NCBI GenBank assembly: GCA_033030425.1
Contig: JAUFSD010000019.1
Location: forward strand, 434,001-498,000
DNA from: Verpa conica
Lineage: Eukaryota > Ascomycota > Pezizomycetes > Pezizales > Morchellaceae
Length of the DNA stretch: 64,000 nt
Direction of reading: 5' to 3'
Position 1 is the stretch's first letter. Every line of letters starts with the position of its first letter. Shown in pieces: positions 25,764-55,182 of this stretch. A program made the position numbers and the translations under genes. Below the pieces are notes generated by a model, which ran no database searches, was not told the origin of the DNA, and worked only from the letters and a program-made list of their open reading frames with translations.

Positions 25764-27560
25764 CTAGCAATAGGTGGTGGATACTGGGAGCGCTTGGGTG
25801 GCTTGGGTAGCTGGTGGTTATCCGGCCTACCCATTTGTGTTGACAGGTGACGTCAGCGTACCTCTCCTGCTTGCTACCCCCTATTGCTACCGACAAACAC
25901 CCATCCACCGCCATATCGACTGTATTTTGCTGCTTGTGAGTACCCCCCCATTTAGACGTCATTTGCATGCTTTGCTGACCTCCATATCGATCCCCATATC
26001 AACCCCCCTGCTGGCTTCGATTCCCTGTCTCTTTGGCTCTTTTTTCGCCGCCTATTAGGACCTCTATTCGCTGTCTATTGGGACCTCTTTTCACGGTCTA
26101 TTGGGACCTCTATTCGCTGTCTATTAGGACCTCTATTTGCTGTCTATTGGGGCCTCTATTCGCTGTCCATTTGGACCTCTTTTCGCCACCTTTTCTGACG
26201 TCTCTCTGACACTGACTGCCTGCTTGCTTCGCCCCAGCAGCAACCCCCTCTAGGAACAAACCTCTGCCTGGACCTCGAGTAGACATCGACTGCCTGCTTG
26301 CCTGCTTGCCTGCTTGCTCGGACAGCGAACCTCTGACCACCTGGACCTCGATCGGACAGCGGCTCTCTGTCTCTCGTGTCCTAGGAGTGAACTTCTGCCC
26401 ACTTGGACCTTGACTGGACCTCGACTGCGTGCCTGCTTCACCCCAGCAGCAACCCCCCCCCCCTAGGAGCGAATCTCTGCCTACTTGGACCTCGATTGCG
26501 CGCCTGCTTCGCCCAGCAGCAACCCCTCCCCCCTAGGAACGAACCCCTGCAGCAGAGACCCCCTCTGGAGCTCAACCAGATAGCGACTCTCTGTCTCCCG
26601 TGCCCTGGCAGCGAACCTCTGCCTTTCTGGACCTCGATCAGACACCGACTGCCTGCTTGCTTCGTCCAGCAGCAACCCCCCCCCTAGGAACAAACCCCTG
26701 CAGCAGAGACCTCCTCTGGATCTCGAGCGGACAGCGACTGCCTGTCTCCCGCGCGCTGACAGCAAACTTCTGCCTATTAGAGACTTACTTTTGTCTGCAA
26801 GCATTCCATATTGCCCATATATCGTTCCTGCGCTGACAATATACAGACAATATATAGACAACAAATTGACGGTGCCTCTATCTTGATCCCATTCTCGATT
26901 CCGTTCTCGATTCCGTTCCCATTCCTGTTCTCGATCCAGTCCCCGTCCTCGATCTGGTTCCCGTTCCCAACCCGTTCCCAACCTGTTCCCAACCTGTTCT
27001 CGATCCTGTTTCCGCCAGTTCACGTTCTCGACCTCTTTTCACAAGCAATATAAGGTTAGTTTTTCCCGTTAGTTCTTTATGTGCGTTTTCAACAGTGTGG
27101 GTGCGGGTGTGGGTGCGAGTGTGGGTGCAGGTGTGGCTGTGGGTGCAGGTGTTGGTGTGGGTGTCGGTGTGGGTGTGGGTGCGAATGCAGGGGGATGAGG
27201 ACTGTAGTCCATACGTTCACTTTACATAAAACGGTAAACTCCATAGACCGCTTTCGGCTGTACATGTACAGTTGATTGGGAGTTTAACGGTAAAGTGTGG
27301 CATTTCGGTTGGGAGGATACGGCTTTTTTAGCCCTATTCTGCAGCTCACGGAAGTTGTGCCGGAACGCCTAGGTGGAGGGCTTGCCACACGCTCTTCCCA
27401 ATGAGGGGGGGGAAAACTCGCGAGAGTTATACTGATCCCCTAGGTAGAGGGCTTGCTACACACTCTCCAGCGAGGGGGGGAAAACTCGCGGGAGTGATAC
27501 CGATCCCCTAAGTGGAGGGTTACCACACATGAACCTGCGAGGGGGACCAAAAAAAAAACT
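25764..27560. repeat. GC-rich tandem-repeat region of the outer Helitron 3' end
   Basis: Counterpart of 49880-51804 in reverse. In order: the terminal block with gcttgggtggcttgggtag; a 23-24-bp minisatellite around ggacctctattcgctgtc (26055-26190); a roughly 60-70-bp repeat built on tggacctcga and gacagcgactctctg (26260-26790); degenerate cgattccgttc hexamer-like repeats (26890-27020); a G-rich GTGGGT tract (27095-27190); a palindrome (27258-27271); and a roughly 70-bp unit present 2.5 times (27369-27548, gtggagggcttgccacac). It ends about 50 bp before the dioxygenase ATG. Open frames inside are composition artefacts. Confidence 0.8.
27258..27271. promoter_or_regulatory. Palindrome CTGTACATGTACAG upstream of the dioxygenase gene
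   Basis: A perfect 14-bp palindrome about 340 bp upstream of the ATG. The inner copy has CGTACATGTACG (50283-50294) at the equivalent place, followed in both by gttga..gggagttt and, further down, by ccctattctgca. Conservation amid diverged sequence suggests a protein-binding or transposition site. Confidence 0.5.
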
Positions 27561-27611
27561 AATAATTTCATCAACAGTAAAAGAGAAAGGCTAACGGGAA
27601 ATCTTTTAGAT

Positions 27612-29507
27612 ATGACTACTACTCCCGGTTCTCCCAGTTCCCTCAGTTCCCTCACCTCTCTTGGTTCTCCAACTCCTCCTGGTTCTCCCAGTCTCCTCCC
27701 TAGTGTTATTTTTTTTCGAGATTCTCAGTCTGTCTTTCCTTGATTGTATAACATTTATCTCCATTTGCTACATTTCATTACGACGGCATTACTGATTGTT
27801 TTCTTGATACATTTTTACATTTATTACATTTTTACATAACTACTAATGATTATCGAAAGGTCGCATACCTTATTACTCACATGTATTGCGCCATTTGTTA
27901 TGAGTCATATTTTGTTACGCTCATTCATGTTTACTACCACACCATTTCGCTTACAAGCACTGTATTACTCATTTCTTTTGGTTATCTTTACTTTGTTATG
28001 GTTTTCAGGGTCAAACGGCGTTCCCACCTCGGTTTTCACATAGTTATCTCGGTTGGAGGATAAAGGATCTTTCTGTATAAATAGCGGGCTGTTCTCCCTC
28101 TTTCTGGGACAGTAATTCTCTAGACATAGACAACAATCTACTACGCTATCTTGTTTGGTATTACATGCTCAGAATTCTCGCTTGCCTGTTCTTTATAGTA
28201 ATAGTTTATTCTGTTGCTACCACCCACTCACTGGCTTTACGCTTCTTTCTGTGCATCGTACCTGTAGAGTTATACCATTAGGACTTGCGTCCTAAGCTGT
28301 TACTCCGCTATTCTTCACACCTAGTTCTTCCACTGCTGCTGATACCTTCAACAATAACGGTAGAGAGAACTCTAATAGAGTTAAGCATTATATTGCTACT
28401 GGAGCTTTTACCAGACAGAGCCTTCCTTATCCTATGCCTAGAGGCAGTTTTCTGGAAGCTGAAGTTGAGAAAATTTTTGTTGTGTGGCAAGAGACTAGGA
28501 AGGATAAAACTGTTTTACGGTCTCCTATTTCTTATAATCTATTACTGGAGAGATCTAAAGGGGAACCTGGACTTATGCCAGAGATTGCTGAGTATGAGAA
28601 GACTATCAAGAGCTTTACTTGGTGTCCATCGAGCCTGGAAACCTTGGAGATTAAGGATAAGAGAGGGCATCTTTTGGGATATCGATTCAAAATTCCTCAG
28701 AATCTTTTGGAGACTTTGAAGAGATCAGATTCTATCTTGCCTGTGAAGGCAGCTAGAAAGCAAGGAGGTGGGGGACAAGTTGAGGCACGAGGAGTTTATG
28801 ACAATAGGCATTATGCTGTTTGGGCAGACTACAGCAAGAGGATTAGACAGAGTAAGGAGATGGAGAAAGATGAGCCAGCTGCTGGGAACTGGGTTGCTAC
28901 AAATAATGATTTATTCAAAGCTATGACTCATGAACTGAGGATGATTGCTCCAGAGCAGTACGTGAGACTTACAGGCAGTATTGGTAAGTTTATGAAGAGG
29001 TTCACTAATAAAGCTGGTGAGCCTTTGAAGCCAGTTGCAGGAGCGTGGCATGGTGTTTGTATTAATAGGGGACAGACTGGTGATGTGTCTTCTAGCCATC
29101 AAGACTGGATGGATCTGCCTAGTTCCTACAATGCAGTTGCACCGTATGGAGATGGCTTTACTGGAGGAGACTTGATTTTATGGCAGCTGAAGATGAGAAT
29201 TCAGTTGTCTATTGGGGAGGGGTTTATGTTTATGGGAAGTATAATTGCTCATAAGGTGAGAGATATTACAAGTGGCGTGAGAAACAGTATTGACTTGTTT
29301 GCTCACAAGAGTACTTTTGCTGTTCTGAATAGGTATAATGAGAGAAATGGAAGAGAAAGATATGGGAAAAAGGCGGGAGAGCTTAGAATGGAAAAAGGGA
29401 GGAAGGAAAAGAAAAAAAAGAATAGAGTAGGGAGAATGAGACAGAGAGATGAGAAAAGAGAAAGGCAAAGTGCGTTGGGATTGATTAAAGGGAAGTGTGA
29501 GGGTTAG
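27612..29507 (+). pseudogene. TET/JBP-like 2OG-Fe(II) dioxygenase, outer Helitron copy, split by a solo LTR
   Basis: ATG at 27612; codons run to 27703, are interrupted by the solo LTR and one TSD (27704-28324), and resume to the stop at 29507. Coding length without the insert is 1275 nt, 424 aa, in frame. The C-terminal catalytic region has the full set of dioxygenase residues: HxD (His289, Asp291, in SSHQDWMD), distal His340 (SIIAHKV) and Arg350 ten residues later (GVRNSIDLFAH), plus FTGGDLILW between. This layout (N-R-G..T..HxDW.D, then GGDL, then H and R) resembles fungal TET/JBP-family proteins that oxidise 5-methylcytosine or thymine and are known on other fungal transposons (KDZ). The tail is Lys/Arg-rich, as in DNA-binding or nuclear proteins. 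The substrate is not shown; a prolyl-hydroxylase-like 2OG oxygenase is the alternative. Confidence 0.65.
27704..28319 (+). repeat. Solo Copia LTR, TSD cctag, inside the dioxygenase gene
   Basis: TGTTATTTTTTTTCGAG to TTCTTCACA, 616 bp, flanked by cctag at 27699-27703 and 28320-28324. It interrupts codon 31 of the dioxygenase gene. Confidence 0.95.
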
Positions 29508-30101: not shown

Positions 30102-30472
30102 TTAAACCTAATAAAAATCGTGTGGGTGGATGAGTAGGTACTGTGAAACACAAACTATTCTCCATTTGTAGTTTATTTCCTCTTTAGGTTCACAATCAAT
30201 TTTAGTGTGTTGTGTCTTTTTTTTTTTTTTTTTTTAATTCATGTGATTTTATTATTCTGGGTACAAAATCTGGTATGCAGTATAAACTATGACCTAAAAA
30301 GAACCCTTCCCCTTCCTAAAAATAAAACCCGTCCCCTTTCAAAATTCCAAACTTATAGAATAAACACAAAGAAAAGTTAACAAAGTAAAATGCACTGCAC
30401 GTTTCTGTCCTTCTTTGGGCGACTTGATGTCTTGTTGCCGTTATACACGGGCTTGATGAAGTTGATGACTCC

Positions 30473-33400
30473 TTATGATTCGGAGTAGGTAATAGAGGTG
30501 AGGGAGGACATGGTGGAGGGGGATGGCACTGGTGACGGGAGTGCCTTTTTTGGAAAATTAATTTTGTTCTGTACGACAAAGACTCCGACAAGTAGCGATA
30601 GGGCTTCAGAGCTCCATATTTCGTCAAGGGAGTTGACATTGGGCAATAAGGAATCTCTGGAGGCGGAGAGACTAGGGCAGTGTAGGAGCACATGCTCCGT
30701 GGTTTCGGGAAAAGAAGAACACCTGGGACAGATGTCGGTTGTGTGGAGATTGATCCACGACTTGTGAGCGTTAAGATAGCTTTTTTCCACACACATTTGG
30801 TGGAGACGGGAAGACTGATATTTATGAAGAGACATGAAATATGGCGTTGTGAGTGAGCAGCCGTATTTGTAGTAAGTGGGTGGGGGGTAGAGGGTCTCCC
30901 AATTTTTAATGAGTTGTTGTTTGATAGCCATCGAGTGGCTTTTGTGGCTGAGGTCGGAGCCGAGTAAGGATTTTATTAGGGAGCCGAGGAGCTCAATGGG
31001 AAGGTGATTAACTCCTGCCTTGGCAGTCGAGTTCCATCATTTGGGGGGATTGGGGAGCCCTTTGAGGAGCTCGGAGTGTGAGTAGCTCCGTTCGGGTGAA
31101 ATGGTCGGGAAAGAACTGTCAAATCGAGCCGTGACTGGATTGTTAAGGGGATGGGCTGTTGCAACCCTGATGGCGTGTTTAATTTTAAGATATTGAAGAT
31201 AGAGCACTAATGGGGGGGTGGAGGCCTCCGCCCATAGAGCGTGTAGATTGGTTGCTCTGAAGCAGCCGAGGGCTCATCTGAAAACTGAGTTCCAAAAGAC
31301 ATTCATTTCTTTTAGGGCTGAGGTGGGGGTGAAGAGGGTGGCGCCGTAGGTAAGCATAGGACGAATGGCGAGGGTGGCTAGTTTTCTGCAATTGCTTGAG
31401 GAAAGTCCTTTCCCGGGGGAGGAAAATCTATGGAGAATGCCAAAGGAAGCCTGGGCTGAGGCCAGTCTTCTTAGGAAGTGATCGTTTGGGTTGAATGTGG
31501 GTGAAAACCAGTAGCCGACCCACCGGACTATTGGTTTTGGAAAGAAGGTGTGCCCATCGATACACACAGGGAGATGTGAGATGGGTGATTTATCTCTGGG
31601 GGTGCGCCAGTGCATGAGCTCAGTTTTTACAACTGAGAAGGACACGTTGCGGGGAGCTGCATCATTTTTAAGGCGATAGTAATTTTCTTGAAGTAAAAGA
31701 ATGTTTTCCTCCACTGTGGGGGAGGCCACCGTAATAGCAAAGTCGTCAACGTATGACAAAGTAATGCCTGGTGAGGGTTCCAGGTGATGTAAAACGCTAA
31801 CGTAAATAACAAATAATAAGGGAGAGATGGGGGATCCTTGGGGGACCCCTACTTGAACAGGAACAGCTAGCTTAGGAGAGCCTTTGTAAAGAAGGGTGAC
31901 CCAGCGGTCGGATAAAAAGGAGAGGATCCAGTTAACCATATAAGAGGGAACAGACTGCGAGGTAAGGATGGAGGCGAGGGTGTGTTTGACCACATTGTCA
32001 AAGCCCCCTTTAATGTCCAAAAAGAGAGTGGAAACTTTAAGTTTGGCTAGCTGCATAGCTCTAATTTCATTATAAAAGACTGTGGTGGCGTCTGAGGTGG
32101 AGAGGCCTGCGACTGAGCCGCACTGGTGTGAGTGTACTAGGCCGGTAGCTTTCGCTATTTTTGCCAGCCTGAGTGTAACTACTTTCTCCAGAATTTTAGA
32201 GAAGGTTTGGAGAAGTACAATTATTCGATAGGAGGAGGTGGCTGAGTAGTCGTCTTTGCCTGGTTTAGCTAGGACTACGCCATTTGCCTTTTTAAGGGAG
32301 AGTGGGTGATACCCATATTTTAAAAGAGGGGTAAGAATTCTGGGAATGACTGTGGGGTTGATTCTGTGAATGCCTTTCCATACCGAGTAAGGGATGGAGT
32401 CAGGGCCTGGTGCTGAAAGATTAGAAGTTTTGGAGAGAACGAGTTGAATTTCTTCCGGTGTAATAGAGGGAACGTTATGATGCCGTAGGGGGGCGGGGGA
32501 GCCGGAATCAGGCCTTGGGGGAAAGAATGCTTTTACCAAATTTTCATTTAGAATTTGGGGCGTGGGGGAGTTGGGAATGGAGGGAATCCGGTCCTCTGAT
32601 CTGGTGGCCATTTTCTTAAGGCGCCACATATCGGAAGGGGAGGCGTTGGACACAAACGCGTTCCAGTGGTCGCGCTTGGCTTTTTTGATAGCGTTAAAGT
32701 AGGCATTTTTGGCCGCTTTTAGCTCAAATGGGGGGGAAAGTCCTTTGCGGTAGGACTTATGAACACTGTGATAGATGGACCTTAATTGAGAAAGATTGGG
32801 GTTCCACCAGGGTTTTGACCACGATGAAACTTTTTTTGTGGGGGTGTGTAAAAGGAGTGTGTTGTGAAGCTGGTTAAAGGACCTATTGAACCAGCTATCT
32901 AGGTCGGTAAAGTCTGAAGAAAGTTGGAACTGACTTATTTGGGGAGTTACAAGGTCCCAATTGACAAGGGACCAGTTAGGAGTATTATAGGGAGTGAAAT
33001 CGGAGCCGGGGGGGACCAATTGGCAGAGGATAACTCTGTGATCTGAGCCGGACGAGACTGGTGGAATGAGCCATTTTGAGACTAGTTGAATTGCGGATTG
33101 ATTTGCCCAAGTAAAGTCGATAACACTGTGTCGCTTCCTTGGGTCCGGGGAGATTCTGGTAAACTTCCCGGGAGTGTTAATGAGTGAAAAGCCAAGTTGG
33201 TTGGCTAAACTAAAATAAGGAGTGGAAAGATTTAGTTCTGTTGACGAGAACTTTCGTAGTGGGTCCGCAGCAGGGGAATGAACGTTAAAATCTCCGACAA
33301 CGACGGTGGGGGTGGATGAGGCCGGAAAGGCCATGTGAGGGGAAATAGATCTAACAGAATCGGACACTTGTCTGTTATAGACATTAACAAGTGTTAAGGA

Positions 33401-33742
33401 TGAAAACGAATGACTTGAAGTTGTTAAATGTAGTGTAATAAAAATAATATCTCCTCGGTGAGAGGGGGACTGGGTAACGGAATTCTTGTCCAAAAAGGAA
33501 AGATTAATATAAAAGCACACCGACACCTTATCTGTCTGAAGTGTGGGTGTGGGTTTAAAAAGGGCAAAATTAGGTGCGATTAAAGGGGAATGATTAAACA
33601 GGGGGGGTTCTTGCACAGCTATAACTTGTGCAGAGTGAACTACTGGATTTGAGAATAGAGAAAGAAACACATTGTTGCTCCCGGCGCAGTTGTGTTGGAT
33701 GATGTTAAGTGAGGGATTATGTTTAGTGGTTGTACTAAACAT
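30473..33742 (-). pseudogene. LINE ORF2: endonuclease, reverse transcriptase, zinc motif; two stops
   Basis: ATG at 33742, one base after the ORF1 stop. The N-terminal apurinic-type endonuclease shows NCAGSNN, QEPP, VVGDFNVHSP and SDHRV. RT shows KPGKDD..SYRII, LDIKGGFDNV, GVPQGSPISPLLF and the catalytic SYVDDFA (where YVDD replaces YADD). The frame is open for 822 codons to a stop at 31274 (FR-stop-ALGCFR), continues to another stop near 31035 (PPK-stop-WNST) and then to the natural end at 30473. The C-terminal C..C...H...C motif (CPRCSSFPETTEHVLLHCP) is the usual ORF2 tail. No RNase H domain is seen. Both stops look like TGG-to-TGA changes, so the copy is probably inactive. Confidence 0.85.
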
Positions 33743-33743
33743 T

Positions 33744-34227
33744 TTAATTGGTGTCGTTCATGGCCACTTCCTCGGTGGCTTCTGAAGAGGGTTGGGCCTC
33801 CTGGGTAGGTCCTTCTCTGAGCTTGTTAATGATGGAAATGCGGTGAGGGCATTTCGAGAAGTTTGCTGTGTGGTTTCCTCCACAGTTGACGCACTTGGAG
33901 GGGGTGGCAACGCAACAGTTGGGTTTGGGGCGGACGTGGCCAGGGCACGTAGTAACGGCGCACTGGTGTTTGTCTCTAGGGTGGCCTAGGGAGCAGATGG
34001 GACAGGTGGGTTCTTTCTGTTTGCACCCTTTGGTTGGGTGTCCGAACTTGTAGCAGTTACGGCAGAGAGTGGCTTTGGAAGCTGACCACATGAGGGAGCA
34101 GTGGCGAGGGCGTGAAAAAAGTCTGATGGTGGTGCCAATAATGGCTGCTTCCTCAGCCGTAACGGTGATGACGACTGTTGAAAACTTTTGGGTGTTGCGA
34201 GTAGTGTCGTCGGCGGTAAGGAAGCGG
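33744..34227 (-). pseudogene. LINE ORF1, C-terminal part with CCHC knuckles (5' truncated)
   Basis: Open from the truncated 5' end to a stop directly before ORF2. Contains three cysteine knuckles of the ORF1 type: CRNCYKFGHPTKGC, CPICSLGHPRDKHQC-like and CVNCGGNHTANFSKC. ORF1 proteins bind the element RNA. The missing N-terminus makes it non-functional. Confidence 0.8.
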
Positions 34228-34244
34228 GTTAGTGTGTTGTGTCT

Positions 34245-35560
34245 ATGTTACGTACTATTATATAGTAGGTATACCTATTGCATTGCTATGTATACTGGTA
34301 CGATTACTTTTATACAGTTGATTCAATATACCTACTAAGAGCAAACAATACAATTAGAATAGAAGCCTAACTTACAATCTTCTAATAGTCTTTATCAATA
34401 GTAGACTCTACGTTCATTCTAAAACTACATCCATCAGCTATACTCTCTATTCCATACCGTCAAAATGAGACTCCCAATATAATCACATAAGAGTTGATAA
34501 TAACCCTAACCCTATCAGAGTCTCTAACAACAATGAATGACGTATATAAAGTAATTACATACATATATTTCAAATGAATAGTCTAAAACCTGTTTTTCAT
34601 GAACGCCAGTATAACATGTGAAGAATAGCGGAGTAACAGCTTAGGACGTGAGTCCTAATGGTATAACTCTACAGGTACGATGCACAGAAAGAAGCGTAAA
34701 GCCAGTGAGTGGGTGGTAGCAACAGAGTAGACTATTACTATAAAGAATAGGCAAGCGAGGATTCTGAGCATGCAATACTAAACAAGATAGCGTAGTGAAT
34801 TGGTGTCTAAGTCTAGAGAATTACTGTCCCAGAAAGAGGGAGAACGGCCCGCTATTTATACAGAAAAGTCCTTTATCCTCCAACCGAGATAACTATGTGA
34901 AAACCAAGGTGGGAACGCCGTTTGACCCTGAAAACCGTAACAAAGTAAAGGTAACCAAAAGAAATGAGTAATACAATGCTTGTAAGCGAAATGGTGTGTT
35001 GAGTAAACATAAATGAGCGCAACAAAATATGACTCATAACAAATGGCGCAATACATGTAAGTAATGAGGTATGCGACCTTTCGATAAACATTAGTAGTTA
35101 TGTAAAAATGTAATAAATGTAAAAATGTATCAAGAAAACAATCAGACCTGTCATCGTAATGAAATGTAGCAAATGGAGATAAAATGTTATACAAACAAGG
35201 AAAAAACAGACTGAGAATCTTGAAAAAATAACATAACATGGAGTTCTTTTTATAGTAGCTATGAGATCATACATTGTAATGAATTGTTGGTGGCGTTGAA
35301 ACTATACCAAATACTGATTGTAATGACGTAGATACTTACACCCAGAGATCGTATACAGCAGACACGATTAGACACAGTTTTATCTATTTTAAGTATATGC
35401 TTTAAGGTTTTTCTCCACTATTAAACTTCCCTGATCTCCCGTCTACTCCTGATCTCTTTACTATCCCACATCAACTTCAATTCTTCTAATCCTCTCAACG
35501 AAACCTCTATTCTCCCTTTTTTCAGTATATCTATCCAATATTGGTAAGTATATTTCCACT
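34245..35560 (+). other. 5' non-coding region of the inner Helitron
   Basis: Together with 30102-30201 this is about 800 bp of AT-rich sequence upstream of the accessory gene, interrupted by a LINE and a solo LTR. It contains no reading frame. A pyrimidine-rich stretch (35410-35525) directly precedes the first ATG and probably contains the promoter or 5' UTR. Confidence 0.5.
34617..35233 (-). repeat. Solo Copia LTR, TSD taaca
   Basis: TGTGAAGAATAGC to AAATAACA, flanked by taaca at 34612-34616 and 35234-35238. Same family as the other Copia LTRs. Confidence 0.95.
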
Positions 35561-36789: not shown

Positions 36790-36911
36790 AGATAGGAACA
36801 GACATTGTATTTAGTTTTATATTTTGGGGTTTCTTTTTACTTTCCGGTGGAAATTATTGGTATTCGTTGATAGCTAATCAGGGGAATGTTTTGTGGTATT
36901 CAGGGTTAATA

Positions 36912-41254: not shown

Positions 41255-41284
41255 CTATCAAATCCATCATCTTTACTGTAGCGA

Positions 41285-43304: not shown

Positions 43305-43311
43305 CCCCTTC

Positions 43312-46300
43312 TCACTTTGTAGTCTCGTTAAAGATGTAACTACATAAGTGGTCGTGTGTCTGTCGTGGTAAACCCTTGGTGCAAATGTCTGCAAAGTTAT
43401 CCGCAGAGGCAACGTGTAATAGATTGATCGTTCCATCTTCGACGAGTTCTCGGACGAAGTGATAGGAGATGTCTATGTGTTTGGATCTATCGTTTAGCTT
43501 AGGATTCCGAGCGATATCGTCAGCGGAGTTGCTATCACAGAGAAGAGCATGAGGAATCTGGGTTTTTAACAACTCGTTAATAGCACGAGTCAACCATAGG
43601 TAGTGTTTTGCCGTCATAGCCAGTGCCATGTATTCAGCCTCACAGGTAGAGGTGGCAACTGATTTTTGCTTTCGGGAACACCAGGATATAGTTGATTGGC
43701 CGAGTTGGAATAGGTAACCAGAGAAGCTTCTTCTTGTATCGAGACAGTTTCCGTGAGATGCATCAGTGAAAGCCGATAGAGGTAAAGAGGTGCCGGTAGG
43801 GTAGAGTAGCTTCCGGTTCTTTGTGCCTTTGAGGTAGCGGAGTACACGCTTTGCAGCGTTGAGATGTACTTTTGTTGGGTCCGAACAGAATTGAGATAGG
43901 TGAGTTATTGTGTAGGCAAGGTCGGGTCTAGTCGCAGTGACGAGATACATAAGAGAGCCTATTATCTGTCTGTACTCAGTTGCATTGACCCGTTCGTCAT
44001 TATCACAAGCCTTCATCAGACGATGGTTAGGGTCGATGGGCGTGGTGACTGGGTTGCAATCTGACATTGAGAAGCGTGATAGGATCTTATCGATAAATGC
44101 AGTTTGCGATAGGGATATTCCGTCCTTGTTGTACTCGATTTGGATGCCGAGGAGATAGTTTAGAGAGCCCATGTCATTGACTTTGAATTCCGACTTCATA
44201 AGTTGTACGGACTGCTCGACTAGATCGTTATCGGGTCCAAAGAGAGTGATGTCGTCCACATAGATGGCCAGGAATATTTCACCAGAGCTGTGGGTTAGAA
44301 CACATGGATCAAAGGCAGAGGAAGAGAACCCGTAAGGTTGGAGGTAGGTAACCAGCCTGCCGTACCATTCCCTTGGGGATTGCTTCAAACCATAAATACA
44401 CCGTTTTAGTCTTGCAACTTTGTTGTCTGACCTGCTGCCTTCAGGTAGTTGCATATAGATCTCCTTGTTCAAAATTCCGTAAAGAAACGCCGTTTTAACA
44501 TCCAGTTGACGAACTTGCCAGCCTTTTATGGCGGTGATGGCAAGTAGGAGCCGTAGGGAGTCGAAGCGAACAACGGGGGAGAAGACTTCGTCGTAGTCAA
44601 GGCCATGTTCTTGTGAAAACCCTTTTGCGACTAGTCTAGCCTTGTATCGTTCAACTTGTCCGTTGGCATCACCTTTTATCTTAAATACCCACTTAGAGTC
44701 CACGATGTTTCGTTGTGGTGGTTTATCAACCACGTCCCATACTTCATTCTCTTTAAGTGAATCAAGTTCTTCGTTCATGGCCAGAGTCCATTTATCCGAG
44801 TCCGCTGAGTTAACTGCTTGTCGGTAGGTCTTAGGTTCATTGACTTCGAGAACTGACACCAGAATGGTATCTTCCGATGGTGTGTCTTCAATCATGAGAG
44901 GTTCAGCGTCAGGTAGAGTGGACCCATGTTCCGAAGATGCAGGAGGAGGAGTAGGTACTCGAGGTACTATCCACCATTCTCTTGGAGGGTGTATCTCTCT
45001 GCCGTAGCGTGTTCTAGGTGCTTGAAATGAAGAATGGAAGGAAGGTAGGGATTCATCGAGGGGTAACTGTGGATGGTGTGATACTTCTGACATAGGATCT
45101 GACTGTGCCGCTTGTGAAAGTCGAAGTGAGCCGACTAACGAGTCAAGGTCCATTGCAGAGGGTGTAGGTGAAGGTGGAATGTTATTCGGATTGACGTATA
45201 GATCATCATTGTTGGAAGATTGAATTGAAGGAGTTGGGTTTTGAAATTCCCAAAATTGAGGTCCTAGGAAGCCATCACGTTTTCCGTTTTCGTACGCTTG
45301 CTGAAAGAGGGTAGTGACCTTAGGATGCCCTTGATGAAACCAGGTGTTTGCAGCTTCAGGGTTGCGATCCATCCAGTTGAACCACATCTCGTCAGTTGGA
45401 AACCCTTCAGTCTCTGTGTAGGAGATAGATGTGTTGGGTGATTTCCGTACAACGTGTTTGATGGGGGTTTTGCTCGTTAACTGAGCCCCTTCTGGCTTCA
45501 GAGGTGGGAAGAAGACATCGCCTGTTATGACTGACTTCTTTTCCTCCGGTAGGAACACTCGATAGTGATGGTTGACATTGGTGTATCCGGTAAAGATGCC
45601 TCTAGTTGCCCTAGGAGAGAGTTTGCTGCCAGCTGAGCGTTTATTCTCAGGTATGTGCACATAGCATTCTCTACCAAAGGGTTGGAGGTGATGAATCGTT
45701 GGTTTTATATCGTGGAAGCACTCATAGGGTGTCTGATTCTTGACACTTGAGTGTGGTTGACGGTTTTTGATGTAAATGAAGGTGGCGACAGCATCGGCCC
45801 ATAATCGTTTGTCTCCAAGAGGAAGTATCATGGCTCTCACAGCTTCACCAATGGTTCTGTTCAGTCGTTCAGCAACACCATTTGACTCGGGGGAGTATGG
45901 TGGTGTTAGTTCGTGCACGATCCCTTTGTTTGCAAAGAAGGTCAACAGGGTGTTGTTGACATACTCTCCTCCATTGTCAGTCCTAAACCTTTTGACAGGG
46001 AGACTGTACTGAAGTTCAACTTCCTTGACGAAATCTTCAATAGCTTTCGCCGTATCTGACTTCTTCTTTAGGAACCGAACCCAGGAGACTCTGGTCTTGT
46101 CATCGATAAAGGTGATGTAATAAAGGGAGTTTCCGTAGCTAGGTACTGGGAAGGGGCCACATAGGTCGGAATGTACTAGTTCCAACTTCTGGGTAGCTCG
46201 TGTATTGGAAGATTTTGGTTTGCTGTGTGTAGACTTCGAGAGTGAACATTGGGGGCAGTGAAAGTTTGTTGGTGCCTGAGGTATGACTGAGGCGTCGCTG

Positions 46301-47739
46301 TAAAGTTCCTTAGCCTTTTCAATAGAGTTTGGAGCTAGGTGTCCTAAAGCAGAGTGCCAAAAGTCAAATGTGAGGAATGCTGCGTCGTTTACTTCGGGTA
46401 TTTTAAAAAGTGTTCCGTCAAAAACTGCTTCGAAAAGAATTTTATTATGCTTAACAATTGAAATCAGATCCCCTTTACCAACCATGGTATATCCCTTTTC
46501 CTTAATTTTCCTCCAAGAAAGTAACGGTCGCTCTAGTTCAGGTACAAATAAAACATCATGAACACGAAAAGAAGAAATGGTCCCATCATTTAACACAGAG
46601 TCCATCACCACAGTGCCTTTTCCCTTTATCGCCATGGAAGCCTTTGAAGAGGACTTCACAAATCCGGAACATGTCTGGAGAGACTCGAACCGTTCTGCGA
46701 GGGGGCACATATGAGAGGTTGCTCCAGTGTCAAAGTAAAATAGGGAGTTTCTTCTTACCGAGTCAGAGTCTTTCCCCGTTGTAACCAGTGCTTTTTCCGA
46801 TTTCCCTTTCTTGTTCTTCTTCCTTTCAGCTTGCATTGCCTTTAGCTTGTCGCAGGCTTCCCATTTGTGTTGTCTGTCCTTTAGGGGCGCATCTTTACGA
46901 TGTGCATTGCACCAGGAACAAGTTTCAACATCAGTCTTGGGTGGTGGAGCCGTGGTGACAGGCTTTTTGTAGGTCTTTTGTTTTTGTTTTGCCGCAAAGA
47001 GGGCTTGCTGATCAGGAAGGGAGGAGGTGTCTTGATGGCTGAGTTCGAGGAGGCGTTGTTTGACATCCGAAAAGGTGAGGTCGTCTTTTGTAGACAGATT
47101 GTCCACGACATTTGAATGGTGCTTAACAATAAAGCCAAGCAGGAAGTCTCGTTTCGCCTTGTCTTGTTCCAGGAACTTTGCAAACAGTACTCGATAGTCG
47201 TCTTTGGAGCTTTTGGCCATTTTATAGAGCCTTAGCCACTCGGTTTCGAACGATGAGATAAACTGAGAGATAGGTAGGGAAGGGTCGTAGGTAACTGAAA
47301 GATTTGTGAGGTTCATGATCTGAGAGACCATGGCATAAGCAGTATCACGATAGAATTCTGCTCTCAGGTAAGTCCACATTTTGTGGGGATGTTCCAGTTC
47401 AATAATTTTCTCCAAAAGATCGGTTGAAACAACTTGAATGAAGACCGCTGAGGCTTGGTTGCATAGAGATTCGTATGCTGCTTTCTCTTTTGCGCTTGAA
47501 CCGGTTGGTGGTTCAGCTCCGTCTACCACGATTTCGTAGACCTTCATCCCTTTCAGGATGATTTTCATCACGGCTGCCCATGTGTTGTAGTTGTGTTGAC
47601 CCTCGAGAGGGCGCACATTGTCGAGTTTGATGGTGATAGGTTTGTCCTTACTGACGCGTTCCGAGAAGGAGAGGTTTAGTTCTTCAACTTTCTCCTCAAT
47701 CGGGTCTTGTGTGCCAGAGGGTTCGCCATTGTTCGACAT
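43312..47739 (-). CDS. Copia gag-pol polyprotein
   Basis: 1475 aa from ATG 47739, all domains in one frame as in Ty1/Copia. A UBN2-type gag (about residues 25-240, LRAEFY.. region) is followed by a short atypical Cys/His knuckle (CSWCNAHRKD..), an aspartic protease (YFDTGATSHMC, Asp337), an integrase zinc region (H..H..CPQC) and an integrase core (Asp525 in HSDLCGPF, Asp588 in RTDNGGEY, Glu624 in NGVAERLNR). RT follows (WVFKIK, KARLVAKGFSQ, LDVKTAFL, catalytic YVDD at 1160-1163), then RNase H (TDASHGN, CEAEYMAL, DNFADICTKGL). No stop or frameshift was seen, and the two LTRs look identical, so this copy may be active. Confidence 0.97.
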   Translation of the reverse strand: MSNNGEPSGTQDPIEEKVEELNLSFSERVSKDKPITIKLDNVRPLEGQHNYNTWAAVMKIILKGMKVYEIVVDGAEPPTGSSAKEKAAYESLCNQASAVFIQVVSTDLLEKIIELEHPHKMWTYLRAEFYRDTAYAMVSQIMNLTNLSVTYDPSLPISQFISSFETEWLRLYKMAKSSKDDYRVLFAKFLEQDKAKRDFLLGFIVKHHSNVVDNLSTKDDLTFSDVKQRLLELSHQDTSSLPDQQALFAAKQKQKTYKKPVTTAPPPKTDVETCSWCNAHRKDAPLKDRQHKWEACDKLKAMQAERKKNKKGKSEKALVTTGKDSDSVRRNSLFYFDTGATSHMCPLAERFESLQTCSGFVKSSSKASMAIKGKGTVVMDSVLNDGTISSFRVHDVLFVPELERPLLSWRKIKEKGYTMVGKGDLISIVKHNKILFEAVFDGTLFKIPEVNDAAFLTFDFWHSALGHLAPNSIEKAKELYSDASVIPQAPTNFHCPQCSLSKSTHSKPKSSNTRATQKLELVHSDLCGPFPVPSYGNSLYYITFIDDKTRVSWVRFLKKKSDTAKAIEDFVKEVELQYSLPVKRFRTDNGGEYVNNTLLTFFANKGIVHELTPPYSPESNGVAERLNRTIGEAVRAMILPLGDKRLWADAVATFIYIKNRQPHSSVKNQTPYECFHDIKPTIHHLQPFGRECYVHIPENKRSAGSKLSPRATRGIFTGYTNVNHHYRVFLPEEKKSVITGDVFFPPLKPEGAQLTSKTPIKHVVRKSPNTSISYTETEGFPTDEMWFNWMDRNPEAANTWFHQGHPKVTTLFQQAYENGKRDGFLGPQFWEFQNPTPSIQSSNNDDLYVNPNNIPPSPTPSAMDLDSLVGSLRLSQAAQSDPMSEVSHHPQLPLDESLPSFHSSFQAPRTRYGREIHPPREWWIVPRVPTPPPASSEHGSTLPDAEPLMIEDTPSEDTILVSVLEVNEPKTYRQAVNSADSDKWTLAMNEELDSLKENEVWDVVDKPPQRNIVDSKWVFKIKGDANGQVERYKARLVAKGFSQEHGLDYDEVFSPVVRFDSLRLLLAITAIKGWQVRQLDVKTAFLYGILNKEIYMQLPEGSRSDNKVARLKRCIYGLKQSPREWYGRLVTYLQPYGFSSSAFDPCVLTHSSGEIFLAIYVDDITLFGPDNDLVEQSVQLMKSEFKVNDMGSLNYLLGIQIEYNKDGISLSQTAFIDKILSRFSMSDCNPVTTPIDPNHRLMKACDNDERVNATEYRQIIGSLMYLVTATRPDLAYTITHLSQFCSDPTKVHLNAAKRVLRYLKGTKNRKLLYPTGTSLPLSAFTDASHGNCLDTRRSFSGYLFQLGQSTISWCSRKQKSVATSTCEAEYMALAMTAKHYLWLTRAINELLKTQIPHALLCDSNSADDIARNPKLNDRSKHIDISYHFVRELVEDGTINLLHVASADNFADICTKGLPRQTHDHLCSYIFNETTK

Positions 47740-47882
47740 TTCGATGGGATGGTTGAGTGATAACTCAGGGTATGTGCGTAAGTCTAGTTCGGATAGAGTT
47801 GGAGAGGTTGAGCGAGCAGGAGAGGTGACAGCAGAAGACGCCAGTGTTGTTGTGAGATTAGAGTTAGCTGTTGTGTGCAGCC

Positions 47883-47894
47883 GGGCTCATAACC
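47883..47894 (-). other. Copia primer-binding site for half tRNA-iMet
   Basis: On the plus strand GGGCTCATAACC directly abuts the 5' LTR end at 47895. This 12-mer equals the anticodon stem-loop of eukaryotic initiator tRNA-Met and not a tRNA 3' end. It implies priming by an internally cleaved tRNA half, as established for Drosophila copia. Confidence 0.75.
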
Positions 47895-48511
47895 TGTGGA
47901 AAATAGCGGAGTAACAGCTTAGGACGTGAGTCCTAATGGTATAACTCTACAGGTACGATGCACAGAAAGAAGCGTAAAGCCAGTGAATGGGTGGTAGCAA
48001 CAGAGTAGACTATTACTATAAAGAACAGGCAAGCGAGGATTCTGAGCATGTAATACCAAACAAGATAGCGTAGTAGATTTGTGTCTATGTCTAGAGAATT
48101 ACTATCCCAAAAAGAGGGAGAACGGCCCGCTATTTATACAGAAAAGTCCTTTATCCTCCAACCTAGATAACTATGTAAAAACCGAGGTGGGAACGCCGTT
48201 TGACCCTGAAAACCGTAACAAAGTAAAGGTAACCAAAAGAAATGAGTAATACAATGCTTGTAAGCGAAGTGGTGTGTTGAGTAAACATAAATGAGCGCAA
48301 CAAAATATGACTCATAACAAATGGCGCAATACATGTGAGTAATAAGGTATGCGACCTTTCGATAAACATTAGTAGTTATGTAAAAATGTAATAAATGTAA
48401 AAATGTATCAAGAAAGCAATCAATACTGTCGTCGTAATAAAATGTAGCAAATGGAGATAAAATGTTATACAATCAAGGAAAGACAGACTGAGAATCTCGA
48501 AAAAAATAACA
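47895..48511 (-). repeat. 5' LTR of the Copia element
   Basis: 617 bp. Same TATA box (about 48139-48146) and the same U3 open frame (48472-48134) as the 3' LTR. It drives transcription towards lower coordinates. Confidence 0.95.
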
Positions 48512-48876
48512 GAAACATCACCTGTCTGTCCCCTATTAATACAGACTCCATGCCACGCACCAGCAACAGGCTTCAAAACCTCTCCTGATCTGGACTTGTA
48601 CTTCAGCATCTGTTTAGTAACAGCTCCCGTAAGCCTAACATATTGCTCAGGATCCCTCATTCTCAGTTCATGAGACATAGCTTTAAACAATCCCATATTC
48701 TGAGCTAACCAAGTACTCGAAGCTGGCTGATCTTGATGCAACTCTCTAGTCTCCTTCATAACATGCATGTAATCAGCCCAGATACCATAATGTCTAGTAT
48801 CAAAGACTCCACGAGCTTCAGGATCCCCTCCACCACCCCTTCTCCTAGGAGTTCTATCAGGCAGTAAAGTATCTGA

Positions 48877-49493
48877 TGTTATTTTTTCGAAGATTCTCAG
48901 TCTGTCTTTCCTTGATTGTATAACATTTTATCTCCATTTGCTACATTTCATTACGACGGCAGTATTGATTGTTTCTTTGATACATTTTTACATTTATTAC
49001 ATTTTTACATAACTACTAATGTTTATCGAAAGGTCGCATACCTTATTACTCACATGTATTGCGCCATTTGTTATGAGTCATATTTTGTTGCGCTCATTTA
49101 TGTTTACTCAACACACCACTTCGCTTACAAGCATTGTATTACTCATTTCTTTTGGTTACCTTTACTTTGTTACGGTTTTCAGGGTCAAACGGCGTTCCCA
49201 CCTCGCTTTTCACATAGTTATCTCGGTTGGAGGATAAAGGATTTTTCTGTATAAATAGCGGGCCGTTCTCCCTCTTTCTGGGACAGTAATTCTCTAGACA
49301 TAGACACCAATCTACAACGCTATCTTGTTTGGTATTACATGCTCAGAATCCTCGCTTGCCTGTTCTTTATTGTAATAGTTTACTCTGTTGCTACCACCCA
49401 TTCACTGGCTTTACGCTTCTTTCTGTGCATCGTACCTGTAGAGTTATACCATTAGGACTTGCGTCCTAAGCTGTTACTCCGCTATTCTTCACA
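48877..49493 (+). repeat. Solo Copia LTR, TSD tctga, inside the dioxygenase gene
   Basis: TGTTATTTTTTCGAAG to TTCTTCACA, 617 bp; flanks tctga at 48872-48876 and 49494-49498. TATAAATA is at 49250-49257. It interrupts the inner dioxygenase gene about 375 nt after its start. Confidence 0.95.
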
Positions 49494-49879
49494 TCTGATT
49501 CCCTCAAAGTATTAAGAAGAGCTGACTCTATCTTAAACCTGTACCCTAAAACAACTCCCTCGGAGTCCCTAATCTCCAATGGTCCAAGAGAAGAAGGATA
49601 GTAAGAGAAAGTTCTAATAGCACCAGAATGTTCTGCAATAGATGCTAGCAGTCCTGTCTCCCCCCCATGAAATCTGTCATAGAGTTTAAGGTAGGTAATA
49701 GGTGATATAGCAACAACTTGGTTCTGCCTCGTAGCCATCCAATCTCTCCAGATTTTCTCCACTTCTGCTTCCAGAGAACTTCTCCTAGGCATAGGGTAAG
49801 GAAGACTTTGACGGGTGAAAGCACCACTCTCAATTAGGTGGAGAACTCTGGCAGGATAGGTACTAGAAGTCATGTCTTT

Positions 49880-51804
49880 TCTCTCCCGTCAGTTTATATT
49901 TTTTAAGGTAAAGCTAAGAAGATGAAAGATTAAATAAAGAGCAAATAGCAGGTAGCAGGTAGCAGATGCATGATTCCATCATACGTGGGCTTTTAAAACC
50001 TCTAGCAGGAGGGTATACGGTGTAATCACGTCCACAGATCGAACAAGACGGGTGTTTATAATCTCTACCAGGAGGGCGTTGCATGAGCAAGTCACAGCGG
50101 TGCCGAATTTCAACTCCAGAGGAGCGGACCTTTGTTTCCCGAGAAAGCTTTATCCCCACGGCAAGGGTGCAGAATAGGGCAGAGACTTAGTCAAAGACTC
50201 AGTCAAAGCCGTACCTGCGGGCCGAATTGCCACGCTTCACTGCTCTCTTCTTTCACGGAAAGAAGAGAAACTCCCTGTCAACCGTACATGTACGAGTCGA
50301 TGCGGCCTAGGAGTGCTGCGTCTGTGAAGCGAACCGGGGGTGGGTTGCTAAACCCAATATCACACACGCAAGTATCACACACGCAAATAGAGCACACAAA
50401 AGAAACTGACGAAAGAGAACTGGGAACCAACCTAAACAACAGTAGCGAGAACTGGAACTGTAGTGGAATCGGGAGTGGGAGTGGGAGCGAGAACGGTAGC
50501 GGAAGCGGGAGCGAGAACGGGATCGGAATCGAGAACAGGAGCGAGAACGAGAATGAGAACGGGAGCAGAAGCTGGAGGAGGAACGTGTTGTCTCTCAAGG
50601 CGGGAAAGTTGTCTAATCACTATCTATATATGTATGGTCAGCGCAGGGACTCTATTAATCGATATAAAGGGTGCTTGCAGGCAGGAGTTCTCTCCCAGGG
50701 CACGAGAAAGGGAGTCGCTGTCCGGTCAAGGTCCAGAAAGGCAGAGGTTCGCTGCCAGGGCACAGGAGACAGAGAGTCGCTGTCTGGTCGAGGTCCAGAG
50801 GGGGTCTCTGCTGCAGGGGTTCGTTCCTAGGGGGGGTTGCTGCTCGGGCAAAGCAGGCACGCAGTCGATGTCCGGTCGAGGTCCAGGCAGGCAGAGGTTC
50901 GTTCCTAGGGGGGGGGTTGCTGCTGGGGCGAAGCAAGCAGGCGGTCGAGGTCCAGAAAGGTAGAGGTTCTCTCCCAGGGCACGAGAGACAGAGGGTCGAT
51001 GGCTGGTTGAGGTCCAGAGAGGCAGAGGTTCTCTCCCAGGGCACGGGTGACAGAGAGTCGCTGTCTGGTCGAGGTCCAGGTAGTCAGAGGTTCGCTGTCG
51101 GAGCAGGAAGGCAAGCAGGCAAGCAGGCAAGCAGGCAAGCAGGCAAGCAGGCAAGCAGACAAGCAGACAGTCGCTGTCCGGTTGAGGTCCAGGGGGGGGT
51201 CTCTGTTCCAGGGGTTCGTTCCTGGGGGGACTGCTGCTGGGGCGAAGCAGGCACACAGTCGATCTCCGAACGAGGTCCAGAGAGGCAGAGGTTTGCTGTC
51301 AGAGCAGGCAGGCAAGCAGGCAAGCAGTCGCTGTCTGGTCGAGGTCCAGAAAGGCAGAGGTTCGCTGCCAGGGCACGGGGGACAGAGAGTCGCCGTCTGG
51401 TCGAGGTCCAGGCAGTCAGTCGGTGTCGGAGAGAGGTCAGAAAAGGCGGCGAATGGAGGTCCCAATAGACGGCGAATGGAGGTCCTAATAGGGGGCGAAT
51501 GGAGGTCCTAATAGGTGGCGAAAAGAGGTCCAAATAGACAGGGAATCGAGGCCAGCAGGGAGGTCGATATGGGGGTCGATATGGAGGTCAGCAAAGCATG
51601 CAAATGACGTCTAAATGGGGGGGTACTCACAAGCAGCAAAAGCCAGTCGATATGGCAGTAGATAGGTGTTTGTCGGTAGCAATAGGGGGGGTAGCAAGCA
51701 GGAGAGGTACGCTGACGTCGCCTGTCAGCACAAAGGGGTAGGCCGGGTAACCACCAGCCACCCAAGCCACCCAAGCGCTCCCAGTATCCACCACCCATTG
51801 CTAG
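49880..51804. repeat. GC-rich tandem-repeat region of the inner Helitron 3' end
   Basis: Reverse counterpart of 25764-27560. From the dioxygenase gene outward: a two-fold repeat with gccctcctggtagag/ataccctcctgctagag (about 49985-50085), a strong hairpin (50244-50268), the CGTACATGTACG palindrome (50283-50294), an AGCGGGAGCGAGAACGG-type hexamer array (50460-50580), a roughly 60-70-bp repeat with gtcgaggtccag and gcagaggttcgctg (50690-51420), an (AGGCAAGC)n tract (51108-51172), a 23-24-bp minisatellite (51440-51540) and the terminal block ending in CTAG. Frames of 100-265 codons here are products of repeat composition. Confidence 0.8.
50244..50268. repeat. Perfect 11-bp hairpin in the inner dioxygenase upstream region
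   Basis: TCTCTTCTTTC, 3-nt loop ACG, GAAAGAAGAGA. It lies next to the conserved palindrome at 50283-50294. The outer copy has an imperfect inverted repeat around the same place (acggtaaactcc / gggagtttaacggt at about 27229-27291). Confidence 0.85.
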
Positions 51805-52566: not shown

Positions 52567-52599
52567 CAGAGTCATAAAGCTAACACAGCAACTGTATTA

Positions 52600-52965
52600 A
52601 TGGTGCAGCTATACTATCAGATTCATGAAGCTACCAGATCCACCGCACTACCAAATTCACTATACTACCACCATTCAACCAAACCACCAAGCTACCAGAT
52701 CCACAACGCTACCAGATCCACAACGCTGTCAGAACCGCAAAACTACCAGATTCACAACGCCACCAGATTCACAACGCTACCATATTCACAACGCCACCAG
52801 ACTTCCCACTTCTATCACTCAATCGGGGTTACTAAGTTGGCAAAGCCACCACGCTGCCAGAGCCACCACGCTGCCAGAGCCACCACGCTGCCAGAACCAC
52901 CACACTGCCAGAGCAACCACGCTGCCAGAGCGACCACACTGCCACAGTCACCACTATTCCACTGC
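52600..52965 (-). repeat. 17-bp minisatellite 3' of the outer RepHel
   Basis: About 20 units of two related types: accagatccacaacgct (52640-52800) and gccaccacgctgccaga (52845-52960). It occupies the same place relative to RepHel as the 18-bp minisatellite of the inner copy, but the unit differs, so the array has been replaced or has evolved quickly. Confidence 0.9.
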
Positions 52966-53022
52966 TACTATTAGCACTATTAGCACTAAAATAGCTTTAT
53001 CAATGCAAGATAGATTTAATAC

Positions 53023-55182
53023 TTAAATAAGTGTTAACGCTTCAAGACGTTTATACTCTTCAATAGCTTCTTGATCAGCTTTGATAGCTACAGGATGGAA
53101 TGAGCTAATAGCTATATCTCTCCACCGTTTGACTCTACTTATTGCTGTATAGGCTTGACCAACGCTAAAAACTGTGGCATCTAATGTCAAGCAGATTCTA
53201 TTCAATGACAAGCCTTGAGTTTTATAGATATAGAGTGCAAAAGCATTCTGAATTGGTAGCTGGGTACGTGAATATGCAATGCCGTTGTGGTGGAAATACA
53301 CCGTATGCAACTGTACTTCTACCATCTAAAACCCAGTACGTATTAGTTAGTGAGTCTATTAAGCTTTAATACTTATACAAATTGATTTGAAGTACTTACC
53401 CGTATACTTTTTATGGTAGGAAATGCTACTGTTGGCAATCCATCATTTCTCAACTCTACGATTATACCACAAGTGCCATTGGATATCCCCAATGCCATGA
53501 TCATGTTATTGAGAAACATGACTTTAGCACCGGCTACACAAACCACTTCAGCAGGATAGTTAGTACCCATTTTGAATGTGCAAGAGTTCTGACTTCCTTC
53601 TAGTTGTTTTCCTTCTTCACGGTCTATAGCATACTGTATATGCTTCTTATTGTCAGGTAAAGAGTCGAGTAAAAGACTATTAATGCTTGTAGCTGTTTGG
53701 CGGAGAGATACTAAGTGAGTTGTAAAATAGGTTTGATCCTGTGTTTGAAAGGTTTGGATCTTTTGATGGATAAGTTGTTGGCTATGAGGGCTAATATAAC
53801 CAAAGCGGAGATCATTTAGGAGCTGAAAAAAGTCCAAGTCTTCATTTTGACGTATAGAGGTTTTCAGAAACAGAGGGCTAAAGAGTTTCCAGAGACTGGA
53901 GTGAAAGACTTTTAAGCCGGTAACTGGTGGAAGCTGCAAGAGATCTCCTAGACAGATAACATGGATATTGCCAAAAGGTCTAATATTGTTGTGAAGACGG
54001 GCAAATAAAGAGGATACAAACTCAAAAAGGTCTGTGTTTACCATTGAAATCTCATCGATCACTATAACTCTAACTTTTTGCAATGATTGAGTTCTTTCAG
54101 GTGACTGGAATACACTTGACTTGAAGCCACCACCGTCAGACCCACCAATATGCAATGCAGAATGAATTGTCTGACCATTAATATTGTTTGCAGCAATACC
54201 TGTGGGTGCAAGAAGGAGATATGAGAGGTGTTGACTTGTGAACCATTGTTGAAGGGCACGCAACAGGTATGATTTCCTTGTACCAGCAGGGCCAGTGATA
54301 AAAAGCTTAACACTTGGGCTTGTAGGGCGGGTTCCAGTAATAGCTTGGGTTATTTTGCTATAGGCTTGATACTGTTCAGGCTGGAGATCAAAAACAATAG
54401 CTTGGTTGAGGGCGGGAGGAGGTAGATGTTGCAACTCTAGGAGTTGGTTATTGATAATGGTTTTAACTGACTGGCTTGTTGTTGCTGTTATAGTATCGAT
54501 AAGTTCCAAATAGATATCTGATAGGTGAAGACGGGTGAGTTGAATTTCTTGCTTGTACGTTGAAAGGAGTTGGTGATAAAGTCTAGGATGCCTGGCTAAT
54601 AGATGTTCTTTATAGGAACTGTGTTGCCCACAGCCTGCAATCTCATTATCTGATCTCCAAGAATCAAGTTCGAGAAGCTTGCAGAAGAAAAAAGGTTCAC
54701 CATCTGCAAGTCTTCGGTAGGCAGTTCTGATTAATATAGGCTATGACAGTATGAGTATTGGACTAGTAATGAGTTGGTATGGGAAAGAATAACCTTTTGG
54801 CGGGCATAGACAAAGCTGCCAGTATTATCCTTCCAGAATTTAGTTTTGCTTCTGCGTTGATGACGTTCTATCTTATACTGAGAATGATATTTGAAGTAGG
54901 TTAATGATTCAAAAGTATAGCACAAAGGTCTTGCAAAGTACTTGTCAATAGCATCTGGATAGTAAGGTGAGTCTCCGTCCTCTTCTTGTTCTAATAGCCA
55001 AGCAGGTTTGACAACAGAAATGAGTTCTGTTGGAGTAGACATTGGAAGATAAATGCAACCACTTGACATTTGAAATATAGGAAAGCTAAGAAGTAGGACC
55101 ATGCATTCCATGGAACCCATTCTACGTGGCAGTAAATGAGACAATGTATGATTGTTGCTCTGAATATTGACAAGTGATTTAG
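53023..55182 (-). pseudogene. RepHel, outer Helitron copy, 5' truncated
   Basis: Pieces 55182-54794, 54740-53400 and 53325-53023 on the minus strand. Introns 54741-54793 (53 nt) and 53326-53399 are at the same positions as in the inner copy. The HUH nuclease is lost: the sequence starts just after the two-tyrosine motif (SLVNIQSNNHTLSHLL). The helicase is otherwise continuous, but Walker A reads GPAGTRKS in place of GTGKS, a G-to-R change expected to abolish ATP binding. VIVIDEISM and the C-terminal KTQGLSLNR..AYTAISR motif are kept. It cannot support transposition. Confidence 0.85.

Follow-up and report, generated by a model that had tools for sequence, protein, structure and literature searches.

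The DNA considered here is a stretch of 64,000 nucleotides from the ascomycete Verpa conica (contig JAUFSD010000019.1, positions 434,001 to 498,000; the whole stretch is referred to as the window, and positions in it are counted from its first letter). It contains two copies of a Helitron, a rolling-circle transposon, which encodes a Rep and a Pif1-type helicase part (together RepHel) and, in convergent orientation, a dioxygenase predicted to be a 2-oxoglutarate- and Fe(II)-dependent (2OG-Fe(II)) enzyme of the TET/JBP fold. An earlier interpretation of the window from its letters alone (the sequence-only reading) had described the two copies as lying in opposite orientations with a common gene order, and one of them as inserted into the other via a solo long terminal repeat (LTR). 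Both statements are borne out by the self-alignment of the window, in which a single LTR is split by copy 1 into the segments 29703-30103 and 51804-52567 and lies itself inside copy 2. The two copies are composed of the following parts.

30104..51804, plus strand: Helitron copy 1, bounded by TT and AAACCTAATAAAAATCG at its start and by CATTGCTAG and TT at its end, as judged from self-alignment, flanks and the genome-wide recurrence of the ends
35561..36789, plus strand: ORF1 of copy 1, a multi-exon gene upstream of Rep, splice sites assigned by eye
37649..39514, plus strand: Rep part of RepHel, copy 1 (Pfam Helitron_like_N, 8e-14)
39469..41055, plus strand: Pif1-type helicase, copy 1 (Pfam PIF1, 1.8e-29), with an extra short 3' exon to about 41252 assigned by eye
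41415..41984, plus strand: minisatellite of copy 1, located between the helicase and dioxygenase genes
42265..49873, minus strand: dioxygenase gene of type B, copy 1, interrupted (pieces described below)
about 50087..51590, plus strand: G+C-rich repeats lying between the 5' end of the dioxygenase gene and the Helitron 3' end, copy 1
25764..55182, minus strand: Helitron copy 2, with its 3' CTAG at 25764-25767, truncated at the 5' side by an LTR at 55182 and enclosing the split LTR and copy 1
53036..55182, minus strand: helicase and C-terminal Rep remnant, copy 2 (Pfam PIF1, 1.1e-30)
52667..52954, minus strand: minisatellites, copy 2, with a repeat unit unlike that of copy 1
27612..29507, plus strand: dioxygenase gene of type A, copy 2, its catalytic part open at 28371-29504
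about 26020..26790, minus strand: G+C-rich repeats before the 3' end, copy 2

Copy 1 begins with AAACC at 30104, directly preceded by TT, and ends with CTAG at 51801-51804; its Rep part contains the strings HTHSLLW and AKYISKYVTK, which presumably represent Rep motifs. The RepHel of copy 2 is cut by another LTR at 55182, where only residues 477-567 of Rep are matched. The start of the stretch 25764..55182, as previously delimited, therefore stands as the 3' end of copy 2, but its end is the point where an LTR cuts off this copy and not an element end. Likewise, the minisatellite thought to be shared by both copies is common to them in position, but not in sequence, since the repeat units differ. 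The dioxygenase gene of copy 1 is broken by a copia-type element (~42684-48511) and a solo LTR (~48877-49496), and that of copy 2 by a solo LTR at ~27704-28319, near the N terminus, whereas uninterrupted open frames of the dioxygenase are present elsewhere in the genome.

A search of the genome (45.8 Mb in 25 contigs, C1-C25; all match counts are lower bounds) with the helicase yielded 28 matches. After merging of pieces and omission of four weak matches of 32-37% identity (C23:94439, C14:1132155, C7:1201368, and C22:618216), 18 helicase copies of the main family (>=85% identity) and two of a divergent second family (53-59%) were obtained. A convergent dioxygenase gene, from a total of 39 dioxygenase matches, is located downstream of the helicase in 17 of the 18 main-family copies, the copy at C14:496885 being the only one without it, and in both copies of the second family. 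In two of the 17 pairs the partners are separated by nested Helitrons (copy 2 of the window, and C22:639491 with C22:653817), and additional insertions are present in other pairs. No helicase is paired with the dioxygenase matches at C10:931782, C10:928118, C12:801232, C21:1104474, C21:742704, C25:540374, C25:559290, and C25:560854, and additionally at C2:355258 (22% identity). The terminal sequences give a corresponding picture, as queries with the 3'-terminal 107 bases and the 5'-terminal 113 bases returned 16 and 19 matches, respectively, the latter consisting of 18 full and one partial match. Pairing of ends on the same strand resulted in 12 spans of about 10-24 kb, and 11 of these contain both helicase and dioxygenase matches, placing the gene inside the element ends in multiple copies, as expected of a TET+ transposon. 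The twelfth span (C12:792722-805351) holds the dioxygenase together with Rep and ORF1 pieces, but no helicase match.

The proposal of the sequence-only reading that the dioxygenase is a core gene of the Helitron is thus supported, since most RepHel copies carry it, and a chance pairing is ruled out by the 17 pairs among 18 copies, the 18 full 5'-end and the 16 3'-end matches. Since Helitrons are known to capture genes (PMC4289320) and both dioxygenase genes of the window are interrupted, the gene might still be regarded as a captured passenger which hitch-hikes in the Helitron without any service to it. This appears highly improbable in view of its presence in nearly all copies and of its retention in the second family. 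The latter, found at C23:793785-811936 (interrupted by another copy) and C2:599346-612755, keeps the order of ORF1, Rep, helicase, and convergent dioxygenase, its Rep and helicase pieces being 53-69% and its dioxygenase pieces 35-48% identical to those of the main family. The association of RepHel and dioxygenase is therefore likely to be older than the split of the families.

The passenger explanation is further disfavored by the substitution rates, which were calculated according to Nei and Gojobori for six type-A and six type-B dioxygenase copies, two of the type-A copies holding one stop. The ratio of nonsynonymous to synonymous rates (dN/dS) is 0.107 within type A and 0.089 within type B, compared to 0.142 and 0.142 within two helicase groups (four and six copies) and 0.103 between them. 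The dioxygenase is under purifying selection of a strength similar to that seen for the helicase. The dS value between types A and B amounts to 1.77, which is near saturation, as compared to 0.44 between the helicase groups.

The distribution of the two types does not follow that of the helicases. A helicase resembling group 1 (94.1%) is combined with a type-A dioxygenase at C15:939523, and helicases resembling group 2 (92-94%) with type B at C20:716319, C25:544895, and C18:672047. A tree of 17 helicase copies, from which the copy at C14:496885 without a dioxygenase was dropped, requires at least two changes of type, and two are already forced by its starred branches. A constraint that keeps the type-B copies together is rejected by the approximately unbiased (AU) test with p 1.2e-48, for groups that were defined from the dioxygenase, yet with a first helicase tree already seen before the test. 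Because the types are at odds with the helicase tree, the dioxygenase was probably swapped as a unit between Helitron subfamilies, with recombination between copies as the simplest reading; alternatively, an ancestor may have carried both types side by side, followed by differential loss. An exchange between subfamilies would fit a gene that is useful to the element.

The assignment of the dioxygenase to the TET/JBP proteins is based on its predicted structure and holds at the level of the fold. In a Foldseek comparison, ranks 1-26 are all occupied by TET/JBP proteins or CMD1, and the model matches CcTet, NgTET1, TET2, and CMD1 before other 2OG oxygenases; among the matches listed, 280 residues of the dioxygenase (VIA) are aligned to CcTet, but only 167-197 in the FTO and AlkB rows. 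The TET/JBP likeness claimed by the sequence-only reading consequently stands by fold, and the structure prediction that it had called for gives no placement in another 2OG family, while at the level of sequence the support for the main family stays below significance. A single-sequence scan of the window frames gave no Pfam match at E<=1, and a clean main-family copy matches Tet_JBP (PF12851) with an E-value of 0.06 and 13 bits, far below the gathering score of 34.9 bits. In the genome search with PF12851 the main family reaches 13.8-18.1 bits and the divergent members 37.2 and 34.2 bits, the former value lying above the gathering score, and a search over 14 control genomes at E<=10 gave a match in E. 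coli, below the cut-off. Membership in another 2OG family (AlkB/FTO or prolyl-hydroxylase-like), with a likeness to TET merely through the common double-stranded beta-helix core, would accommodate the low scores, but seems unlikely given the uniform Foldseek ranks, the much longer alignment to CcTet, and the match of the divergent family members to Tet_JBP.

The Fe(II)- and 2OG-binding residues expected from the earlier reading (HxD, a distal His, and an Arg) are found in the readable rows of the alignment, with His in 26 and Asp in 29 of 30 rows, the distal His in 29/29 and the Arg in 29/29; all four are present in all three rows from the genome itself. The last motif position is Asp in 29 rows and Asn in one, and HxE occurs in 0 of 30. 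Five positions after the HxD His, Asp is found in 23 of 30 rows (Asn in six, Tyr in one), and this Asp and the His of an F.HK motif align with residues of NgTET1 in the HMMER alignment, which we take to be contacts to 5-methylcytosine (5mC). At position +11, which corresponds to Asp337 of CcTet provided that there is no gap between the two positions, 27 of the 30 readable rows have Asn.

These residues bear on the reaction catalyzed. An enzyme of the same fold could mark the DNA of the element, e.g. by JBP-like thymine hydroxylation, CMD1-like glyceryl transfer, or CcTet-like oxidation of N6-methyladenine (6mA), for instance so that its rolling-circle intermediates can be distinguished from the DNA of the host. 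Such a role is considered rather doubtful: CMD1 and CcTet indeed belong to the closest folds, but the very closest, CcTet and NgTET1, are both 5mC oxidases, and the Asp at +5 and the F.HK His, as presumed contacts to 5mC, would fit the same activity. On the other side, Asp337 of CcTet, replaced by Asn here, is described as essential for 5mC activity, and another modification of cytosine or thymine is allowed for in the published proposal (Kojima, 2025; PMC12730594).

The element represents a Helitron family with a standing set of ORF1, RepHel, and a convergent dioxygenase of the predicted TET/JBP fold. With a fair degree of probability, this enzyme would oxidize 5mC or a different modified base in the DNA of the element, as Kojima proposed, and thereby weaken methylation-based silencing by the host, so that RepHel could be expressed. 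As the dioxygenase gene points inward from the Helitron 3' end, its transcription may start from a promoter of its own, within the G+C-rich repeats or close to them. The data indicate that a rolling-circle transposon can retain a DNA-base dioxygenase as a lasting member of its core gene set, in contrast to a gene captured by chance. Three stretches of the genome match the C5 DNA methylase family, and C>T changes are found at 30 of 692 CpG sites-by-copies, versus 92/3710 for CA, 82/2658 for CC, and 103/4230 for CT; this slight excess at CpG lends weak support to methylation, and a signature of repeat-induced point mutation (RIP) was looked for and none was seen. With several open copies of two enzyme types in one genome that has C5 DNA methylase matches as well, it can be asked directly whether transposons bring along erasers of methylation, and also whether a change of eraser type is a response to changes in the host.

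The first exon of ORF1 has 19 matches genome-wide, including the two divergent-family copies at 55-57% identity, which adds a further conserved Helitron gene that was absent from the sequence-only reading. Its product has an acidic segment and an end rich in lysine and is possibly a DNA-binding helper. Searches with it found nothing in Pfam with an E-value under 0.04 and nothing in the PDB at E<=1; an OB-fold or RPA-like role was envisaged solely from its appearance and was not retained.

Further TET genes are present in the genome. A second, distant Helitron at C23:91000-98700 (Helitron_like_N at 107.7 bits, with one internal stop; helicase only 32% identical) is accompanied by a 374-amino-acid frame with an HKD motif (C23:97578-98699, minus strand), which reaches the edge of the stretch examined, lies ~0.8 kb beyond the last helicase-like frame, and matches Tet_JBP with 33.8 bits when scanned by itself and with 35.4 bits when the genome is searched. 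This gene is of another type than the main-family dioxygenase and occupies the same convergent place. More Tet_JBP-like stretches occur at C4:1517386, C11:1014979, C11:1361108, C16:946537, C5:1216767, C4:1977248, and C18:44112, and the near-identity of the C16 and C5 stretches and of the two C11 stretches suggests other TET-bearing repeats. An open dioxygenase relative of 404 amino acids with the motif HWD (C21:1102974-1107068, match C21:1104474; 36-39% identical) is a candidate for a domesticated gene or a relic; the genome-wide helicase and Rep queries gave no match on its contig.

The remaining features of the window are mostly other mobile elements.

30207..34243, minus strand: LINE-like (long interspersed nuclear element) element in copy 1, with a reverse transcriptase (RT) frame at 31274-33757 and GTGTTGTGTC repeated on both sides; limits approximate
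34617..35233, minus strand: solo LTR in copy 1, from self-alignment
24903-25507, 27704-28319, 34617-35233, 42688-43304, 47895-48511, 48877-49493, and 55303-55919: copies of the copia-type LTR

The first of these was presumed to be a LINE from the look of its RT/endonuclease frame. The seven copies of the one copia-type LTR lie within 31 kb and are 92-99.8% identical in the self-alignment, and the element at ~42684-48511 is likely a recent insertion because its two LTRs are 99.8% alike. Outside copy 2, a G+C-rich array at 20124-21404 with units of 149 and 309 bases is similar in composition to the repeats that precede the 3' ends of the Helitron copies. A DDB1-like gene in the window is 75% identical to a Morchella protein in the best local alignment and 49-54% identical to those of Wilcoxina, Rhizina, and entries with the incomplete names 'Sphaer', 'Geopyx', and 'Peziza', which places the host among the Pezizales in the vicinity of Morchella.

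In comparison with known Helitrons, the element combines typical and unusual features. The presence of Rep and a Pif1-type helicase and the 3' CTRR of the copies are those of Helitrons: inspection covered each of the 16 3' ends and, at the 5' side, 18 of 19 matches (the partial one at C2:607362 was left out), showing CTAG in 15 and CTAA in one of the former, followed by TT in 16/16 (two ends read by eye), and TTAAACC in 18/18 of the latter. Three pre-insertion sites were compared, namely intact LTR copies for copy 1 of the window, an LTR for C1:937392-949940, and the spacer of another Helitron for C22:642610-653080; the second and third comparisons were made by eye. Each contains TT once; therefore TT is either duplicated or the element starts with TT, both readings being equal. 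No hairpin above the level of shuffled sequences was found in the last 50-80 nucleotides of the one copy that was folded. The canonical Helitron1 is described with TC at its 5' end, an A^T insertion site, and a 3' hairpin (PMC5148889), none of which is found here, as the copies start with TTAAACC, target TT, and show no hairpin in the copy folded. According to the same source TT is the target of Helentrons; the TET+ Helitrons of Pezizales are placed in Helitron1 by Kojima (2025; PMC12730594). The non-canonical FoHeli elements are likewise fungal RepHel elements with a target other than A^T, but differ in termini and target from the element described here with its TT and the lack of a 3' hairpin in the one copy folded, and the word 'dioxygenase' occurs 0 times in their description (PMC5148889).

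The sequence-only reading knew of no TET/JBP gene on a Helitron, which does not hold, because Kojima (2025; PMC12730594) reports such genes in five Helitron families of Puccinia graminis, on a Helitron2 of Agaricus bisporus, and in five Pezizales species of four families, and proposes an anti-methylation and anti-silencing role; the general idea is thus already in print, and a 2026 review citing this work calls the enzymes still to be functionally characterized (PMC13297926). Kyakuja/Zisupton/Dileera (KDZ) transposons also carry TET/JBP genes, with CcTet as solved relative (PMC12730594), but are DDE-type and not rolling-circle elements, and the dioxygenase is only 11-14% identical to CcTet. 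The PE type, which includes Tuberaceae and Morchellaceae, shares with the present element the TET/JBP-fold gene on a Pezizales Helitron and the closest structures (CMD1, CcTET, NgTET, and TET2), but is set apart by its hallmark HxE, as judged from its main-text description. The PU type of the Puccinia graminis TET+ Helitron1 agrees in HxD and the TET/JBP gene but differs in host class, in a comparison by description (PMC12730594).

The profile search listed 29 proteins, with Tuber borchii (two), T. aestivum (two), T. magnatum, and a metagenome-assembled genome (MAG) of Vezdaea acicularis as the six named sources; a second search based on 31 sequences listed these 29 proteins again and, among the matches listed, nothing that would connect them to PE-, AG-, or PU-type sequences, and no Agaricus protein is among the six named relatives in either search. 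A literature search, with Kojima's supplement outside its reach, found no report of an HxD type in Pezizales, of linkage copy by copy, of dN/dS values, or of an exchange of types. The element thus looks like a distinct variant of the Helitrons with a TET/JBP gene described in 2025. It is quite possible, though short of probable, that the HxD family, so far seen in Tuber, the Vezdaea MAG, the Verpa host, and other sequences, constitutes a fourth transposon type of TET/JBP, which became obligatory for the Helitron before the two Helitron families split, with the old types A and B (dS ~1.8 vs 0.44 for the helicase) traded between subfamilies as interchangeable anti-silencing cassettes, in a genome that also holds a second distant Helitron with another TET type. 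What is added to the published idea are the HxD type, the linkage established copy by copy, the measurements of selection, and the mismatch between the dioxygenase types and the helicase tree.

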